From an uncultured Clostridia bacterium (lineage in GTDB: Bacteria > Bacillota > Clostridia > Oscillospirales > Acutalibacteraceae), in contig CANQBP010000007.1 in NCBI GenBank assembly GCA_947589415.1, positions 1 through 64,000 of the forward strand: 64,000 nt of DNA, read 5' to 3'. The translations under genes and the position numbers were made by a program. The notes under the pieces are model-generated. The model worked only from the letters and a program-made list of their open reading frames with translations. It ran no database searches and was not told where the DNA came from. Numbering within the stretch: position 1 is the stretch's first letter; each line of letters begins with the position of its first letter. Below, in pieces: positions 22,422 through 47,104 of this stretch.

Positions 22422-23504
22422 ATGTCAAAAAGGGGATCTGCCATACTTCTTGTTATCGCTGCGATTGTGGTAACGGGAATTTTTGGCTATTTGCTTAATG
22501 ATTTGATACATTTTAATTATATTAAAGAAACGGGAATAAAAACAAAGGCAACCGTAATAGCCGTAACAAGTACTGCCATACACAACAGGCACATATCAAA
22601 GTCGGGTATAGCGGTATATTATGATAAAGAAGGGTATGAGCATGAATATCATGGCTATATTGGAAGTTCCGGAACAGGAAAAGGGGATACGATAGATATA
22701 ATCTACGATAAGGACAACCCTGACGAGGTTATAAAGCAGGGTGATGAATTGTGGCTGCAAATATCTACGGTCGTTTCCGGAACGGTTTCTTTGGCAATGA
22801 TTATATTTACCGTATGGGCTATTACACATAGAATTGATAAGAAGCAGATAAGGTGTGTGCATCAAAACGTCACCAATGAGGAGCTTGCAAGAGTTGTAAG
22901 GGAGTATATGCCGCAGACGAGAGAAAAGTTTGCCAAAGAGAAAAAGAAAAATCGCAGGATAGATAAAGTCACGGCAGATGAGTATGTTGAGAATATGCTC
23001 CGTTCGGGTGACGGACTGGTAAATTTTTACAACAATTTCAAGAATATTACCGAAAACGGCAGCGTATATCTCGGAGCAATCATAAGACCGCTTGATAACA
23101 GTATTTTTAGTGAATTAGGCGATAGTGCAAACGAAAGGTTTACAACGCCTGCGTATGTTGTTTACAGTACCGATGATTGGTTTACGGAGCATCCTGAAGA
23201 GCTTATCTCCATATCTCAAGGTTTATGTGCATCTCTTTACGGGGGACAGTTTGACAATCCCGACGTACAGCTTATAAACGCAATTGCTTCAAATTCATTT
23301 CGTCCGTTTAATTTAGAGTATTGCGGAGCTCTTTCTCACGGCAGAAAAATCTATATTTCTACGGTTGTGTTAAGTAAATTTCAGCTTTGCAATCAAAAAT
23401 TGTGTAACAGACTTATTTACATAGTGGCAAATCCCTCGGTAACGCCGTATGCGACGGTTCTGCCTGCATGGTACTGGTCAATGTGGGAATTGAGTGCCTT
23501 TTGA
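22422..23504 (+). CDS. Membrane protein with DUF3592-like extracytoplasmic domain
   Basis: Two TM segments flanking a beta-rich segment ending GDTIDIIYDKDNPDEV. Confidence 0.65.
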   Translation: MSKRGSAILLVIAAIVVTGIFGYLLNDLIHFNYIKETGIKTKATVIAVTSTAIHNRHISKSGIAVYYDKEGYEHEYHGYIGSSGTGKGDTIDIIYDKDNPDEVIKQGDELWLQISTVVSGTVSLAMIIFTVWAITHRIDKKQIRCVHQNVTNEELARVVREYMPQTREKFAKEKKKNRRIDKVTADEYVENMLRSGDGLVNFYNNFKNITENGSVYLGAIIRPLDNSIFSELGDSANERFTTPAYVVYSTDDWFTEHPEELISISQGLCASLYGGQFDNPDVQLINAIASNSFRPFNLEYCGALSHGRKIYISTVVLSKFQLCNQKLCNRLIYIVANPSVTPYATVLPAWYWSMWELSAF

Positions 23505-23582: not shown

Positions 23583-24050
23583 TTAAACCCTCATAATAAT
23601 ATTGAGCATATCTTTAAGCTCTTTGAGGACATCAACCGTATTCGGACTTTTATATCCGTCTTTAGCGAGTACATCGATCTGCTCCTTGAGAGTCTGTATC
23701 ATCTCTCTTCGAGGATCGTTCTGTTCCGCATATTTTGTCGGCAGAACTATATCGGGTGTATTTTCCGAATTAAAGCTGTTTAGCAGAACTAACAGACTTT
23801 CCGCTTGTGCTTCGGACATTTGTTCGACAGCTGCAATAAGAGCTTCTTTAGTGTCCATGTTTTTTCCTCCTTCTGCATTATCAACGGACGGAGGATTTCC
23901 GGTCAGACAAATCGTATGTGCATCGACGGAAATCGCCCGACCTTTTTTCAGCAGTCCCCTTGCCCTTTTGGGGTAGGTAGTACCAATATAATTTCCGTTA
24001 ATGTCTTTGACAATAATGTTTTTTGTTATGGGTGTCATCCCCTTTGTCAT
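23583..24050 (-). CDS. Hypothetical protein with N-terminal TTYPKRARGLLKKGRA motif; start uncertain
   Basis: NIIVKDINGNYIGTTYPKRARGLLKKGRAISVDAHTICL, then a helical Gln/Glu-rich C-terminal part. Confidence 0.6.
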   Translation of the reverse strand: MTKGMTPITKNIIVKDINGNYIGTTYPKRARGLLKKGRAISVDAHTICLTGNPPSVDNAEGGKNMDTKEALIAAVEQMSEAQAESLLVLLNSFNSENTPDIVLPTKYAEQNDPRREMIQTLKEQIDVLAKDGYKSPNTVDVLKELKDMLNIIMRV

Positions 24051-24355
24051 TGATCGTGCAGCAGTACTGCATGATTGGATTATAACATCTTTAATTCCCC
24101 TTGTCAATAATTGTCGGTTAAATTATCAATTATTTTTAAGTTAAATTAAAAATTGAGTTGTAAATTGATACAAATTATGATAAAATTTATGCATATCGTA
24201 TTTTTAGTTTATCAAATATATTGAACATTGGGGAAAGGTGCTTTATCCGTAATGCAGCCTCAATTTTTAAATTTTGCGTTTAAGATGTTATAAACTCACT
24301 TTCTGTTATGTTTCGCGTCCATTTACCGTTAAAACGGCCTGCCTAAAAAACAAGC

Positions 24356-24390
24356 CGATTTCCGACTATGTTATAAATAGTCGGAAATCG
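24356..24390. repeat. Perfect 13-bp inverted repeat cgatttccgacta-N9-tagtcggaaatcg
   Basis: Arms 24356-24368 and 24378-24390. Confidence 0.95.
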
Positions 24391-24559
24391 ACTTTCGCTA
24401 GCAAGAGTCACCGCCGGAATAAGCAGCTACTTGTATATATCATGTTTTCCACCCCCTCTATGACTTATTATACATTAGAAAAAATGAAAAAACAAACAAA
24501 AATACAAAATAATTTTGCATACGATTTGTGTTTTAATTGCACATGGGAGGCGGTTCTGT

Positions 24560-25861
24560 ATGCCATTTGATAGAGAGTTTTGTTTTTGTGATTTGTTAAA
24601 ATATTTAGATGGTTATGAATATTTGCTTACGTCCAGTTTTAGAGAGCGTAACATTACAGATATGATTTCTAATGTTTTGGGTGATGAACTGTTTAACTAT
24701 GCATTTCATTATGGTGAACCCAGATATATGTCTCCGATATTAGAAAGAAGGGAAAACAAGTCCATACGTAATCCGACATATCGTTTTGTCAGGTGTTTAG
24801 ACGATGCAATTCGGAGGGGTTTCAATCAATTTGAAGAGCAAATCAGACGTATAGTTTCCGTCAAATATTACGGCAAATTGTCTTTTGAAAATATAGAAAA
24901 AACCGGAAGACTGTACAGGGCAAAGGAAATTATTGACTTTTTTTTAAATGATCAGGAAATATGTATTTTTGACAATCCCGGAAAAAGTGAGCTTGCACGG
25001 ATGTGGATTAGCTGTTTAAATGACAGAAAAGAATATTCATTGTGTATATTATGGATACTGATTATTTCAATTTATCCTAAATCTTTAAAATGGCAAAAGT
25101 TTGAGAGGCTTAATGATTATTGGCAGTATTGTATGGGTAATTTTGCCGTTTACGGGCAGAATACCGAACAAATTGAAAAAAACAACAATCCCGTAAATAC
25201 ACTTTCACTAAAAGGTTTGAGGGACTTTTTATCACTTATTGGGAACTCTCAATTGGGGGTAACAGACGAGGACATAAACAAAATTATTGTGGAAAGAAAA
25301 CCGTTCTTTGACAGTATGCCCGGTTGTGTTTTTGAATTGGCGAAAACTAATAATAATTTTAAAAATGCGGTTATTGATGCAGTAAACAGCTTGCAGGACG
25401 ATTTTTACTTTTGTTTGAAGATTTTGCTTTCCGTTTCAAAATGTGATACCGGGCATCAGGGAGTTAATTTTATACCCGTCCCCGAACTGAAAATAGATAA
25501 TGTTCTGTTAGTTAAAATGCAGGGCGCAAATATCATTTTACCCGACGGCAATTCTTACGTGTTGAATTACGGTTATTTGCTCGTATTTGATTTTCTTCAA
25601 AAAATAACTGATGATTTTACTTCTTTTGAGGAGCTTGCTTCGATATTTCCGAGCATGGATTTTTCTAAGCTCGGTTGTTTTAGTTACGATTATTATTCGG
25701 GCAATTGGAATAGTATTCTGAAGGTGTTTTTTATATCTGACAGATACAGAGATGTCCTTGACTCTAAACAGAAAGAGGCAGTATTATCACAAATCAGATT
25801 TCCTGATGTTATGGTGAAAGATATTTATATAAAATCAACGTGGAGGGTTATGGAAAAATGA
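24560..25861 (+). CDS. Unknown protein A of the 3-gene operon
   Basis: ORF with RBS gggagg before the ATG at 24560; stop overlaps the next start (ATGA). Confidence 0.8.
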   Translation: MPFDREFCFCDLLKYLDGYEYLLTSSFRERNITDMISNVLGDELFNYAFHYGEPRYMSPILERRENKSIRNPTYRFVRCLDDAIRRGFNQFEEQIRRIVSVKYYGKLSFENIEKTGRLYRAKEIIDFFLNDQEICIFDNPGKSELARMWISCLNDRKEYSLCILWILIISIYPKSLKWQKFERLNDYWQYCMGNFAVYGQNTEQIEKNNNPVNTLSLKGLRDFLSLIGNSQLGVTDEDINKIIVERKPFFDSMPGCVFELAKTNNNFKNAVIDAVNSLQDDFYFCLKILLSVSKCDTGHQGVNFIPVPELKIDNVLLVKMQGANIILPDGNSYVLNYGYLLVFDFLQKITDDFTSFEELASIFPSMDFSKLGCFSYDYYSGNWNSILKVFFISDRYRDVLDSKQKEAVLSQIRFPDVMVKDIYIKSTWRVMEK

Positions 25862-27093
25862 TTACAGATGTTTTTGACTCTGTCAAATTTTCGGAAATTG
25901 AAAACGATTATGATACAATTAGAATAAATAAAATTCATGCAACCGCAGCGCTTTATGAGGCACTGATATTCTGCCCCGAAGGTGTTCTTATGCTGTCAGC
26001 ACCGCAGTTTTTTGACGGATTGGCGGCAGTGGATAAAAAGTGGAGAAGTGTTATATTTGACCTGATTAAAAAGGGATTTGTGAAAATTGCTCTATACAAT
26101 ACACCAAACGGAAACGGCGGAATACATAATATAAAAGAATATCTTTCAAAATTTGTAGCCCCGAAGAAATTCATTTATTCTTCAAGACCTCACCTTTCTA
26201 AGATGCTCGCCGAAGGGGACAGGTTTATTGAGGAGCACACTAAGGCGGTATGGGATCATATACTGAACCGTTCTCCCAAGCCGTCGCTCGGAACAGATCC
26301 GATTTCGGAAGAATTGAAAGATTTGATTTCATTTTTTGATGAGTTTTTTAATTGTGTCGGTAATGACAGCGACATTTATTCCATACAAAATTCTCAATAT
26401 GTTTCGTATAAAGACTATATAAACAACTCGTTTTGTGATGCGGAAAAAATTTCGGATTTTAATCCGTATGTGCTGTTTAACCTGTTTGCGGTCAAGAGGA
26501 GAGATGAATTTCTGTATAGTTTGAACAATTGTGCCAACAGAACCGAATTAAATGATTTTCTTGACGAAAATCCTTTTAATATAGATAGTGAAACAATAAG
26601 GGATATAAAACGGATATATGAGGTACTGTATAATAAATTTTCATTGATAACTTTTAACAATTCTAAAATTCATGTGCCTGTCATTGAGGGAGAAGATCGG
26701 AGGAGATACTTAAATATGTTGGTTTCTGCCTCTAATGTTAATCACCCTAATAAATATAAGTATGAAAATACCGAATTGATCCGAAAGGCAACCCGCAATA
26801 TTACGGCACTTTCGTTAGATGATGTCATAGGTATGCATAATGAAATAAAGGAACTTAAAGATTTGGAGCGTATACCATGGAATGATGCGCTGAATAAATA
26901 CAAGGATAACTTGCGGCGTACTTCCGAACTTGAATTTGATGACAATTTCTATACTATGGTTGTGTCAGACAGCAGTAAAAATTCAAAGTATCTTTTTACG
27001 TCCGTTGATGTTGAAAATGCGCTTGATGCTGCCATAAAAAATGTATTTTTGGATAACATTGATAATTTACTTCAGGAGGATTCGTATATATGA
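25858..27093 (+). CDS. Unknown protein B of the 3-gene operon
   Basis: ATG within ATGA overlap at 25858; RBS ggaggg; stop overlaps the next gene by ATGA. Confidence 0.8.
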   Translation: MITDVFDSVKFSEIENDYDTIRINKIHATAALYEALIFCPEGVLMLSAPQFFDGLAAVDKKWRSVIFDLIKKGFVKIALYNTPNGNGGIHNIKEYLSKFVAPKKFIYSSRPHLSKMLAEGDRFIEEHTKAVWDHILNRSPKPSLGTDPISEELKDLISFFDEFFNCVGNDSDIYSIQNSQYVSYKDYINNSFCDAEKISDFNPYVLFNLFAVKRRDEFLYSLNNCANRTELNDFLDENPFNIDSETIRDIKRIYEVLYNKFSLITFNNSKIHVPVIEGEDRRRYLNMLVSASNVNHPNKYKYENTELIRKATRNITALSLDDVIGMHNEIKELKDLERIPWNDALNKYKDNLRRTSELEFDDNFYTMVVSDSSKNSKYLFTSVDVENALDAAIKNVFLDNIDNLLQEDSYI

Positions 27094-27752
27094 CAAAAGA
27101 GTTAAAACGTTATTATGAGCTTATGGAAGAACGACCGCAGGAATTTTTGAAATCGGAAATTATTGATATAATTACAGATGAAACAACGATTGAGGAATTT
27201 TGCCGTAAAAATAATGTTAAAACCGGTGTTGTTTATGAAAGCAAATACCACATAATGGTGGTTGACGTTGTAAAGGATAAAAACGGCAGAATGTTTACGT
27301 ATGAACGCATTTTGAATACCGTTCCGGGCGGAAGTGTTGTGATAACAATACATAATGATAAGTTTGTTCTGCTTGAACAGTTCCGTCATGCCATGAGATG
27401 CCGACAGTACGCTTTTCCGAGAGGTTTCAAAGAATTGAAAATAAGCAATATTGAAAATGCGAAAAAAGAATTAAATGAGGAGATCAAGGTCAACAACTCG
27501 GATAATGTTTCGTACCGATTTATAGGAAATATTATTGCAGACAGCGGTTTGTGCGGAAACGTGGCAGATGTTTATCTTTGCACGATCACTGATGATGAGG
27601 ACATAAGTGCAAGGGCAACGGAAGGAATTGTAGGAACGAAAGAAGTGACTCAAGACGGGCTTAATGATATGATAAGGAACGGAAGTATTGATGACGGATT
27701 TTCTTTGGCTGCGTATTCCTTATTCTGCGCAAAAACCGAGAAACAATCTTAA
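27090..27752 (+). CDS. Nudix hydrolase (ADP-ribose pyrophosphatase-like) of the 3-gene operon
   Basis: PRGFKELKISNIENAKKELNEEI degenerate Nudix box in ADPR-pyrophosphatase-like context (VLLEQFRHAMRCRQYAFPRGF). Confidence 0.8.
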   Translation: MTKELKRYYELMEERPQEFLKSEIIDIITDETTIEEFCRKNNVKTGVVYESKYHIMVVDVVKDKNGRMFTYERILNTVPGGSVVITIHNDKFVLLEQFRHAMRCRQYAFPRGFKELKISNIENAKKELNEEIKVNNSDNVSYRFIGNIIADSGLCGNVADVYLCTITDDEDISARATEGIVGTKEVTQDGLNDMIRNGSIDDGFSLAAYSLFCAKTEKQS

Positions 27753-27760
27753 ATAAACAA

Positions 27761-27805
27761 AAAAAACGCTTGAAATACCCGAATGTAAGGTTTTCAAGCG
27801 TTTTT
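27761..27805 (+). terminator. Intrinsic terminator closing the 3-gene operon
   Basis: aaaaaacgcttgaaa / ttttcaagcgttttt. Confidence 0.85.
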
Positions 27806-27895: not shown

Positions 27896-30109
27896 TTAGT
27901 TTTCTATTCCGTCAGTTTTATAAATAAATTTTACCTGACCGTCGGTATTATCGTCAATGCCCGCAAAACTCTTGTAATTAAGCGATACTTCCTTAGTTGC
28001 ACGTATTCTTGCAACTAAATCTTCGAAATTATTGTTTACTATATCCGCAAGTTTTTGTATACCCTCTTCATTAAATTTTGAAAGACCGTCTTTAAGCTGT
28101 TCAGAGCCGTCTTTGATCTGTTTAATGCCGTCAATAAGTGCCGGAACGGAGTTTTTCATTTCTATCACACCGTCATACAATTCGGCAGAACCGTCTTTAA
28201 GCTGTTCGGTACCGTTTTTAATTTCTTCTGTTCCGTCTTTCAATTCGTCTGCACCCTCAGCAGCCTGCGAAACACCGTTTGTATATGCTTGTAAGCCTGT
28301 ATAAAAAGTATTATAGTTGTCGAGAGATGATTTTAGGGATATCACGGATTTTGCACCCTCCGATGCTGCAGCAAGCTGCGACTGCACCTCATCTGATGCC
28401 ATATTGTCAGATACAGCTTTCTGCACCTGTATTTCCGTATTTGAAATAATTTGTTGTTTAACGTTATCGGTTTCCATTTGTTTTGAAACATTATTTTCAA
28501 CAGTTGCCTGTATTTCTTTGGTATTCATTTGTTCTTCGGTTTTAGCGTTTATGGTCTGTAATACGGCATCGCTTTTCATTTGCTTTTCTATTTCGTTTTC
28601 CACGGCCTTGCGTGTCTGCTCGTCTATAATACCTGCTTTAACGGCAGCGTCATATTTCGATATATCCGTGTTCATTGCTGCAAGCACCTGCATACGGACG
28701 TTTTCACGTACAGCCTGCGTAACTTTGGCGGCAACCTCTTTTTTAACGACTTCCGTTACCTGCTTTGTTACTTCTTGGCGGACTGCTGCTGTAACCTGTT
28801 CCGTAATATACGGACGCTTTTTCTCAACTTCGGTCTTTACGGTATTTACGGCTTTATTGTAAACTGCATTTTCGTCAAGAGAAGAGATTACATCGTCCAG
28901 TACGGTAGAATAGTTATCTATGGTAAGTAACGGCACTTCAAGACCCGCAGCGGCAAGCTGATTGTTTGCAGTAGAAAGAAGTGTTTCAAATACCTGTTTT
29001 GCACCGCCGTTAAGTTCACTGTTTTTATCGGAAAGAGTATTCAGACCGTCATACAACTGCTCTGCACCTGTCTTTAGGCTTGCTGCTCCCTCGTCCAATT
29101 TGTCTGTACCGTTTTTGAGTGTTTCAGCACCGTCGGCAAGACGATTTGTTCCGTCCGTAAGCTCTCCCGATTTATCGAATAATTCCGAAATACCGTCATA
29201 AAGCTCCGATGAGCCGTCGAGCAGCTTATCCATACTGTCGGTAAGCTCTTTCATTGAATCCTTGAGATCATCTGCTTTATTAAGACCGTCCGTATCAATT
29301 TCATTGAAAAGCTCGTTTGCAGCAACTGTCAATGTCATTCCAAGCTCAAAATTTTCCGCATCGGCGGTAATCTCTACATAATTCGGAATTTCAAGGTCTT
29401 TTTCCGAAATTCCGAGATTTTCCTGCAAACCGGGGAATGATACTCCGACAACGGCAGTTCGGCTGCCGTCGTTAATCAATTTGCCGTTTTTGATATCAAC
29501 ATTTTTGAATATATTATTGTCAAGAATAACTCCCGTAATCATGGTGTAGGGAACATATATCTTCTCTTTTTTGCCGTTTATTTCTTTATATTCAAACTGT
29601 TTGTTTGTGTAATCAAAGCGTATCGTTACCTTACCGCTTTTTCCTTTAAGCTCGGAGGCGGATATTTCCCTGTCGTCCAGCTTATATGAAATTTTCATAT
29701 CAACGGGAAGCTCCTTATCTATATTTCCCTGATAGTAAATATCGTTTCCTTCGGAATCCCATACTTTTACGTTGTCATTTCCGTCAGTAAAGGTTTCATC
29801 ACCCTTTACATTCTCAATGTCAGACAGCTCCGTTCTATCCGTTATGGATTTATCCTTGAGCCTGTTTTTTATCCAGTCGCTTACAATTATCTTATTGGCA
29901 GATCCGTCGGCATTTGCAAGGATATATACCGTTTCGTCTTTAAAAGCGGAGTTATCTTTGCTTTCTTTTTCGGTGGAAACCGAACTGCTTTTCTCCGTAT
30001 TATTATCATTATTATCCGTATTCAGAGATGAGGCGGTAAGAACAACACCGCCGAACGATACAGCCGCACAAAGACAAACGGCTATTATTTTAATTATGGA
30101 CTTTTTCAT
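27896..30109 (-). CDS. YhgE/Pip-like extracytoplasmic protein with heptad (LxxG) repeats and long coiled coil
   Basis: N-terminal TM; repeated LKDG/LYDG heptads; VTKQVTEVVKKEVAAKVTQAVREN coiled coil. Confidence 0.75.
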   Translation of the reverse strand: MKKSIIKIIAVCLCAAVSFGGVVLTASSLNTDNNDNNTEKSSSVSTEKESKDNSAFKDETVYILANADGSANKIIVSDWIKNRLKDKSITDRTELSDIENVKGDETFTDGNDNVKVWDSEGNDIYYQGNIDKELPVDMKISYKLDDREISASELKGKSGKVTIRFDYTNKQFEYKEINGKKEKIYVPYTMITGVILDNNIFKNVDIKNGKLINDGSRTAVVGVSFPGLQENLGISEKDLEIPNYVEITADAENFELGMTLTVAANELFNEIDTDGLNKADDLKDSMKELTDSMDKLLDGSSELYDGISELFDKSGELTDGTNRLADGAETLKNGTDKLDEGAASLKTGAEQLYDGLNTLSDKNSELNGGAKQVFETLLSTANNQLAAAGLEVPLLTIDNYSTVLDDVISSLDENAVYNKAVNTVKTEVEKKRPYITEQVTAAVRQEVTKQVTEVVKKEVAAKVTQAVRENVRMQVLAAMNTDISKYDAAVKAGIIDEQTRKAVENEIEKQMKSDAVLQTINAKTEEQMNTKEIQATVENNVSKQMETDNVKQQIISNTEIQVQKAVSDNMASDEVQSQLAAASEGAKSVISLKSSLDNYNTFYTGLQAYTNGVSQAAEGADELKDGTEEIKNGTEQLKDGSAELYDGVIEMKNSVPALIDGIKQIKDGSEQLKDGLSKFNEEGIQKLADIVNNNFEDLVARIRATKEVSLNYKSFAGIDDNTDGQVKFIYKTDGIEN

Positions 30110-45025: not shown

Positions 45026-45067
45026 ATAAATAATAAACAGTATTTGGTAAAAAGGAGTTGTTATATT

Positions 45068-47104
45068 ATGCAGCTTGAAAACAGTACAGGCAATGAACGC
45101 TCGGAACTGGATTTATTTCACAGCGGAGAAAATTACCACGCTTATAAGTATCTGGGAGCGCATAGGGCAACTGTCAACGGTATTGAAGGCGTTATGTTCC
45201 GTACATGGGCTCCTAATGCTAAGACCGTATCGGTTGTCGGTTCTTTTAACGGTTGGGATCGAAATCAACACAGAATGAACAGAATATCTGACGGCGGTGT
45301 TTGGGAATGTTTTATATCCGAAATTGTTGAGCCATTCGCAATATATAAATACAGTATAGAAACGTTTGATGATGTTTGTATGATGAAATCGGATCCGTAT
45401 GCCTACCACTATGAAACACGTCCTAATAATGCTTCGGTATTTTTCGATATAGACGGGTTTGAGTGGCACGATCAGGATTGGGAAAAAACTAAGCATGAGC
45501 ATGAGTCGTACAGCAGCCCTATGAATATATATGAGGTTCATGCCGGTTCATGGAGAAAATATAAGGACGGAAATTATTTTTCGTACAGTAAGCTGGCAGA
45601 CGAGCTTATACCGTATGTTAAGGAAATGGGCTACACTCACATTGAACTTATGCCGCTGACAGAATATCCGTTTGATGCATCATGGGGATATCAGGTGACG
45701 GGATACTTTGCCGTGACGTCAAGATACGGTGCGCCGTTTGATTTTATGGAATTTGTCGATAAATGCCATGCTGCCGGTATTTATGTCATTATGGACTGGG
45801 TGCCTGCACATTTTCCGAGAGATGCATTCGGACTTGCACGTTTTGACGGTACACCCTGTTATGAGTATGCCGATCCCCGCAAGGGCGAACATAAGGATTG
45901 GGGAACACTTGTATTTGACTACGGAAGAAACGAAGTTGTAAGTTTCCTTGTTTCAAGTGCGATATTTTGGATGGATTACTACCACATAGACGGGCTGCGT
46001 GTTGATGCCGTTGCCTCAATGCTCTATCTTGATTACAGCAGAAGGGACGGAGAATGGGTTCCGAATAAATTTGGCGGAAAGGAAAATCTTGAGGCTGTTG
46101 CGTTCCTGCAAAAGCTGAATGAGGCAGCGTTCAGATATTACCCGGAGGTTCTCATGATAGCCGAGGAGTCTACATCTTGGCCCATGGTTTCAAGACCGAC
46201 ATATTCGGGCGGACTCGGATTTAACTACAAATGGAATATGGGCTGGATGAACGATATGCTCCACTATGTGTCGCTTGATCCGCTTTACCGTCCTTTTAAT
46301 CACGATAACCTTACTTTCTCGTTTTTCTATGCTTTTTCGGAGAATTTCATACTTCCGATATCACATGATGAGGTCGTTTACGGAAAGGCTTCGCTTATAA
46401 ACAAAATGCCCGGCTCGTATGAACAGAAGTTTGCGGGAGATAGGACATTTGTTGCATATATGATGGCGCACCCCGGTAAAAAGCTCACCTTTATGGGCAC
46501 GGAATTCGGTCAGTTCAAGGAATGGGATTATGCAACGGAACTTGATTGGCTTTTGCTTCAATATCCCGCACATAATGACCTTAAAAACTTCTTTAAACAG
46601 GTAAATAAATTCTATCTTGAAAATTCACCGTTTTGGGAAGTGGATTACTCTTGGGACGGCTTTTCGTGGATTTCCAACGATGACTATACACAAAGCGTTA
46701 TCAGTTTCAGGCGAATAAATAAAAAGGGTAACGAAATTATTGTTGTATGTAATTTCCAGCCCGTGCTGCGTGAAAATTATCGTATAGGTGTTCCGATTGA
46801 CGGTACATATTCCGAAGTATTCAATACGGAGTCAAAGGAATTTGGCGGATGCGGAATAACTAACGGTTCGTCAATTGTTTCCGATGAGATAGGTATGCAC
46901 GGATTTGAACAGTCAATATCACTCACCCTCCCGCCGATGTCGGTGCTTTATTTGAAATGTGTGCGTAAAAAGCCGAAGAGAAAACCGAAAGTCGTTTCGG
47001 ATGCCAAAACAAAAGAAACCAAGAAGGTTACGGCAAAGGCAAAGTCGGAAAAAGTGACCAAGCCTAAGACAAAAAAACAAAAAACGACCAAAAAAGAGTC
47101 GTGA
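45068..47104 (+). CDS. glgB: 1,4-alpha-glucan branching enzyme with Lys-rich C-terminal tail
   Basis: [80 protein letters not shown]. Confidence 0.96.

Follow-up and report, generated by a model that had tools for sequence, protein, structure and literature searches.

The stretch of 64,000 nucleotides analysed here (the window) carries a tight operon encoding two proteins of no recognised family and a putative Nudix hydrolase, which raises the question of whether these proteins work together and what such a unit might do. All three genes lie on the plus strand: gene A (24560..25861; 433 aa, start ATG at 24560), gene B (25858..27093; 411 aa) and gene C (27090..27752; 220 aa, the Nudix protein). 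In agreement with the original prediction, the three reading frames are intact, consecutive genes are joined by ATGA stop/start overlaps at exactly the predicted positions (25858..25861 for A/B and 27090..27093 for B/C, plus strand), and each gene is preceded by a plus-strand ribosome binding site, with the RBS-like sequences GGGAGG (24545..24550) and GGAGGG (25842..25847) in front of A and B, and AGGAGG (27074..27079) in front of C. The strong terminator proposed to close the operon is real as well: folding energy and z score identify a terminator-like stem at about 27765..27805 (-18.9 kcal/mol; z -5.2 on the plus and -7.0 on the minus strand), and as the z scores are strong on both strands, it appears usable in either direction; the gene on the 3' side (27896-30109) is convergent.

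A perfect inverted repeat had also been described upstream of the operon. It is present, but its perfect arms measure 14 bp (24356-24369 and 24377-24390) and not 13 bp, and they extend to 18 bp at 94% (24352..24394); exact copies of the arm occur in the window at these two places only. Because a T-run follows on the minus strand, the repeat looks like a minus-strand terminator and not an operator, and it is not evidently a control site of the operon. Two other features were observed on this side. Downstream of a DegT aminotransferase gene lies a gene (22422-23504) whose product of 360 aa has a hydrophobic stretch at the N-terminus and no match in Pfam or PADLOC, and a consensus-perfect promoter of the sigma-70 type (TTGACA-17-TATAAT with TG; 24107-24079, minus strand) leads into a minus-strand reading frame (23583-24068).

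Searches of Pfam, NCBIfam, PADLOC, PHROGs and PDB sequences returned nothing significant for A or B, so that the two proteins are, as foreseen, without a recognised family and not members of housekeeping families. The frame of A comprises 433 sense codons in a row at 34% GC, for which base composition gives an estimated chance of ~1e-14; it is open far beyond chance, though no homologue confirms it. None was found in 300 genomes of the family (besides its own), in IMG/VR or in plasmids (tblastn), and A has no homology to the ~1100-aa proteins or the TIR protein described below. The idea that A is the split-off N-terminus of the fused protein hence has a positional basis only. A is an orphan protein with no detectable homologue.

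For B, single-protein scans of IMG/VR and GTDB genomes yielded no relatives, and tblastn against plasmids and phages gave no match. Its counterparts lie beside relatives of C. In three Clostridia (G698, G971 and L027) a ~1100-aa protein is encoded 2-40 bp upstream of a C-type Nudix gene, and B is matched by the C-terminal ~400 residues of these proteins (E 4.9e-5 in blastp, covering B residues 40-201). In genome G1172, a single 744-aa polypeptide (L070:9079-11313) consists of an N-terminal domain shared with B, two predicted TM segments and a C-terminal Nudix domain with the PRG motif discussed below; its gene sits within a polysaccharide gene cluster. The shared region, termed the B-domain, covers B residues 1-115 (25858..26202, plus strand) and shows the motif DS...NQ/PQ-x-x-D...KG-h-I/V-x-h-x-h-Y...F-I-Y/F-S-S/A-x-P. 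It was defined on five sequences (window, L025/L010, L026/L012, L027 and L070), and in each of these a B-domain protein adjoins or is fused with a PRG Nudix. In leave-one-out HMM searches against a background of reversed ORFs, B of the window ranked first of 599 sequences (E 2.7e-4, Z=1e4) and the L070 fusion also ranked first (E 1.1e-7), with the next-best sequence at an E of about 2-3. The HMM did not match A, the TIR protein or the protein next to the Nudix in L071, and this test ruled out the corresponding L071/L072 protein as a B homologue. Judged from its sequence, the B-domain is a new, previously unrecognised domain. The structure model of B is of low confidence (pLDDT 35.7), and an effector role of B hence gains no structural support from it. 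The adjacency in several lineages and the natural fusion strongly indicate that the two proteins function jointly as a recurrent unit: B and C make up a real module.

The original prediction described C as an ADP-ribose-pyrophosphatase-like protein with a degenerate Nudix box. Family models place C below their cut-offs, with 14.6 bits for Pfam NUDIX (cut-off 21.1) and 26.4 bits for the best NCBIfam match, NudE (NF008736; cut-off 169), an enzyme acting on ADP-ribose, Ap3A and NADH; the best phmmer match in the PDB is NudF (4.9e-8). The AlphaFold model, built from a ten-sequence alignment, reaches a pLDDT of 88.6, and Foldseek against the PDB retrieves ADP-ribose and NDP-sugar hydrolases (best E 1.0e-11, TM 0.58/0.67). 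According to this confident model, C is a Nudix-fold protein. The box at residues 112-134, GFKELKISNIENAKKELNEEIKV (27423..27491, plus strand), preceded by FPR, reads G-x5-I-x7-K-E-L-N-E-E-I-K-V against the consensus GX5EX7REUXEEXGU. It is indeed degenerate, the first Glu being replaced by Ile and the final Gly by Lys, while the REUxEE core is kept as KELNEE with the metal-binding glutamates E127, E130 and E131 intact; the REUxEE glutamates are invariant across the nine aligned members of the branch. The likeness to ADP-ribose pyrophosphatases holds for the fold, but C carries PRG and falls into a clade separate from the PAG enzymes.

This separation was seen in a tree of 46 Nudix rows, in which a set of 20 including C is split with 100/99 support from 26 housekeeping ADP-ribose pyrophosphatases. 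Before the Nudix box, the housekeeping rows have PAG, and C and its closest relatives have PRG. The host genome's own ADP-ribose pyrophosphatase sits among the housekeeping rows. C pairs with the Nudix of the L070 fusion (99/79) and then with a TIR-partnered Nudix (96/82). Three Nudix rows from prophages lie outside the housekeeping clade, on its side of a weakly supported root fork. In this tree, C belongs to a Nudix branch distinct from the housekeeping ADP-ribose pyrophosphatases, and with PRG and a position outside the PAG clade it does not qualify as a housekeeping enzyme of the NudF type.

The genes beside PRG Nudix relatives differ from carrier to carrier; these neighbourhoods were inspected singly, and several of the carriers are metagenome-assembled genomes. 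TIR and CHAT proteins, both typical effectors, are among them. The closest relative of C in the scan of genome contigs (40% identity) is the PRG Nudix of an Oscillospiraceae MAG (L024:6798-9636). Immediately upstream of this Nudix is the gene for a protein of 721 aa; it has a TIR_2 domain (E 5.6e-17), and its C-terminal ~550 residues fit no Pfam family. On an Embleya plasmid, a CHAT-TPR protein (CHAT E 4.7e-14) is encoded divergently beside the Nudix gene. A Streptomyces ADI95-16 plasmid (L031:1-5687) carries two annotated CHAT proteins, a 477-aa protein of no known family and a related Nudix gene; as the annotated CHAT protein tested from this locus has no Pfam CHAT match, the CHAT partnership is firm for Embleya only. 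On prophage contigs, which also carry integrase, replication O, baseplate or tail-spike genes, the gene for a 205-aa membrane protein with sub-threshold similarity to Pfam 8xMP (E 2e-5 to 1e-4) overlaps the Nudix gene. In L015-L023 this membrane protein and Nudix cargo was observed at two places, near tail-spike and near replication/integrase genes.

Other partners are of a different kind. In two other genomes of the Bacillota group (L071:7102-8900 and L072:4966-6761) the gene for a 425-aa protein of no known family shares a 4-base overlap with the Nudix gene; the pair adjoins nucleotide-sugar epimerase and polysaccharide genes, and in L072 the 425-aa protein is broken into two ORFs. On two Streptomyces plasmids (L030 and L035) the gene of a PLP-dependent decarboxylase overlaps the related Nudix gene, a hint that part of the branch may be metabolic. 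Most generic Nudix matches on plasmids were set aside as probable metabolic enzymes, with neighbourhoods of NAD salvage or ABC transporter genes.

The operon is rare. Of 300 family genomes, a single one, that of the window, has A and B, and the same holds for B among 396 genomes of the order; C-type Nudix genes were found in two more of 392 genomes of the class, and a motif-based GTDB scan added L024 and L027, while the single-protein scan of IMG/VR gave no relatives of C. In genomes of the same genus that retain the adjoining pair of MMPL genes, different genes occupy the site of A-B-C, and the GC content of the operon genes is 0.34-0.38, compared with about 0.38-0.45 for most neighbour genes. 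The full set was found nowhere else where A was sought (300 family genomes, IMG/VR and plasmids). A-B-C is thus rarely carried and was probably acquired horizontally. The proposal of an accessory module, in which a nucleotide-metabolite hydrolase works with two partner proteins, is supported for B and C, which recur adjacent in three Clostridia and fused in one genome, but not for A, an orphan seen in the triple once. Nor were known defence genes found by PADLOC next to the operon, as had been considered: among ten window proteins tested, the sole match (C3a214, 45044-47104) is to a model of a GlgB-type metabolic enzyme and was discarded as a defence gene.

What, then, might the unit do? The Nudix is constant and its partners are exchangeable, several of them typical effectors, which suggests a division of labour, with a nucleotide ligand handled by the Nudix and the output provided by the partner. 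Tentatively, and at somewhat less than an even chance, we favour the reading of A-B-C as a conflict module that is gated by a nucleotide, rarely carried and probably gained by horizontal transfer. C would be the constant subunit and would deal with the ligand, binding an NDP-X nucleotide (ADP-ribose-like or other) and hydrolysing it slowly; B would be the output subunit with an activity set by the ligand state of C, and A a partner that may stabilise, sense for or extend B. Infection or another stress would alter the ligand and release a growth-stopping activity of B; in the relatives, a TIR, CHAT or membrane protein would serve as output in place of B. This reading is supported by the fusion and adjacency of B-domain and Nudix, the tree, the exchange of partners, the fold of C, the patchy distribution, the low GC content and the precedent of the CBASS effector Cap16. 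Against it stand the position of the prophage Nudix rows on the housekeeping side of the root fork, the PLP-decarboxylase neighbours in Streptomyces, the lack of homologues of A, the lack of a nucleotide-signal synthase in the window operon, the low-confidence model of B, and the failure of C to match the PADLOC candidate Nudix model, which several of its relatives match weakly. A link to phage defence is plausible, on contextual grounds. The wider notion that PRG Nudix proteins are a shared ligand-gate in a family of immune modules whose outputs can be exchanged (TIR, CHAT, membrane protein or B-domain), with A-B-C as a three-gene version that uses the B domain as effector, is possible but rather doubtful.

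The tight ATGA coupling and the invariance of the catalytic glutamates would also suit a toxin-antitoxin-like arrangement, in which B, or A and B, makes or uses a toxic product of the NAD/ADP-ribose type and C, as the antidote, clears this product until infection blocks C. The modelled ADP-ribose-type fold of C fits this arrangement, as does the TIR protein that partners one relative; TIR proteins are known NAD consumers. However, such a product would not be expected from partners of the CHAT or membrane-protein kind, searches of Pfam, PADLOC and NCBIfam reveal no signature of an NADase or ADP-ribosyltransferase in B, and a direct fusion of B-domain and Nudix fits sensing as well as detoxifying, so that we consider an antidote role unlikely.

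It is quite improbable that C is an ordinary metabolic Nudix of nucleotide-sugar, NAD or ADP-ribose metabolism and that A and B are auxiliary enzymes or hitchhikers. The fold and the best matches of the NudF/NudE type agree with such a role, as do the polysaccharide genes around the fusion, L071 and L072, the DegT aminotransferase gene near the window operon and the PLP decarboxylases paired with some Streptomyces relatives; yet the genome also has a housekeeping ADP-ribose pyrophosphatase, which falls into another clade, a single one of the 300 family genomes has the module, and TIR and CHAT proteins as partners, together with carriage by prophages, speak against it. Very improbable, despite its intact catalytic glutamates and the sub-threshold match to NudE as closest curated family, is C as an effector that destroys NAD caps, dinucleoside polyphosphates or another essential NDP-X pool with A and B as infection sensors, given that the partners of the TIR and CHAT kind are typically effectors in their own right and that the Nudix mutant of Cap16 keeps its toxicity.

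Cap16, a NUDIX-containing membrane protein that stays toxic when this domain is mutated (PMC10419184), is the nearest precedent for the nucleotide-gated conflict module favoured here. Like the L070 fusion and the prophage pairs of membrane protein and Nudix, it combines a Nudix with a membrane output, there in nucleotide-signal immunity. The likeness is one of domain make-up, not of sequence comparison. In contrast to the Cap16 system, PADLOC found no CD-NTase among A, B, C and ten other window proteins, the terminator closes the operon behind C, and the window operon holds no nucleotide-signal synthase; no TM helix is predicted for A, B or C, as against two for the fusion, and a B-domain has not been described for Cap16. 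With NudE and NudF (PDB 5c7q/5c7t, NudF with ADP-ribose), C shares the fold and the box glutamates, but it differs in its PRG, its clade, its low score against the NudE model and its changing partner genes. The TIR_2 protein of L024 recalls Thoeris and other TIR immune systems, although its pair with the Nudix matches no complete known system and Pfam finds neither TIR nor SLOG nor Macro domains in A, B and C. The parts consulted of surveys of NAD/ADP-ribose conflict networks group Nudix, TIR, SLATT and related domains (PMC9503650, PMC7159879); neither the B-domain nor the combination of this Nudix branch with B, CHAT and TIR partners is described in these parts.

Nudix domains occur in immune systems such as that of Cap16, where their role is unclear, as toxicity persists in the Nudix mutant. 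With a compact module that is free of predicted TM segments and combines a Nudix subunit of known fold with a new partner domain, and with a natural fusion of B-domain and Nudix, the roles of sensor, antidote and effector can be told apart directly for a Nudix protein, and further modules of this kind may easily be sought by way of the PRG motif and the B-domain.
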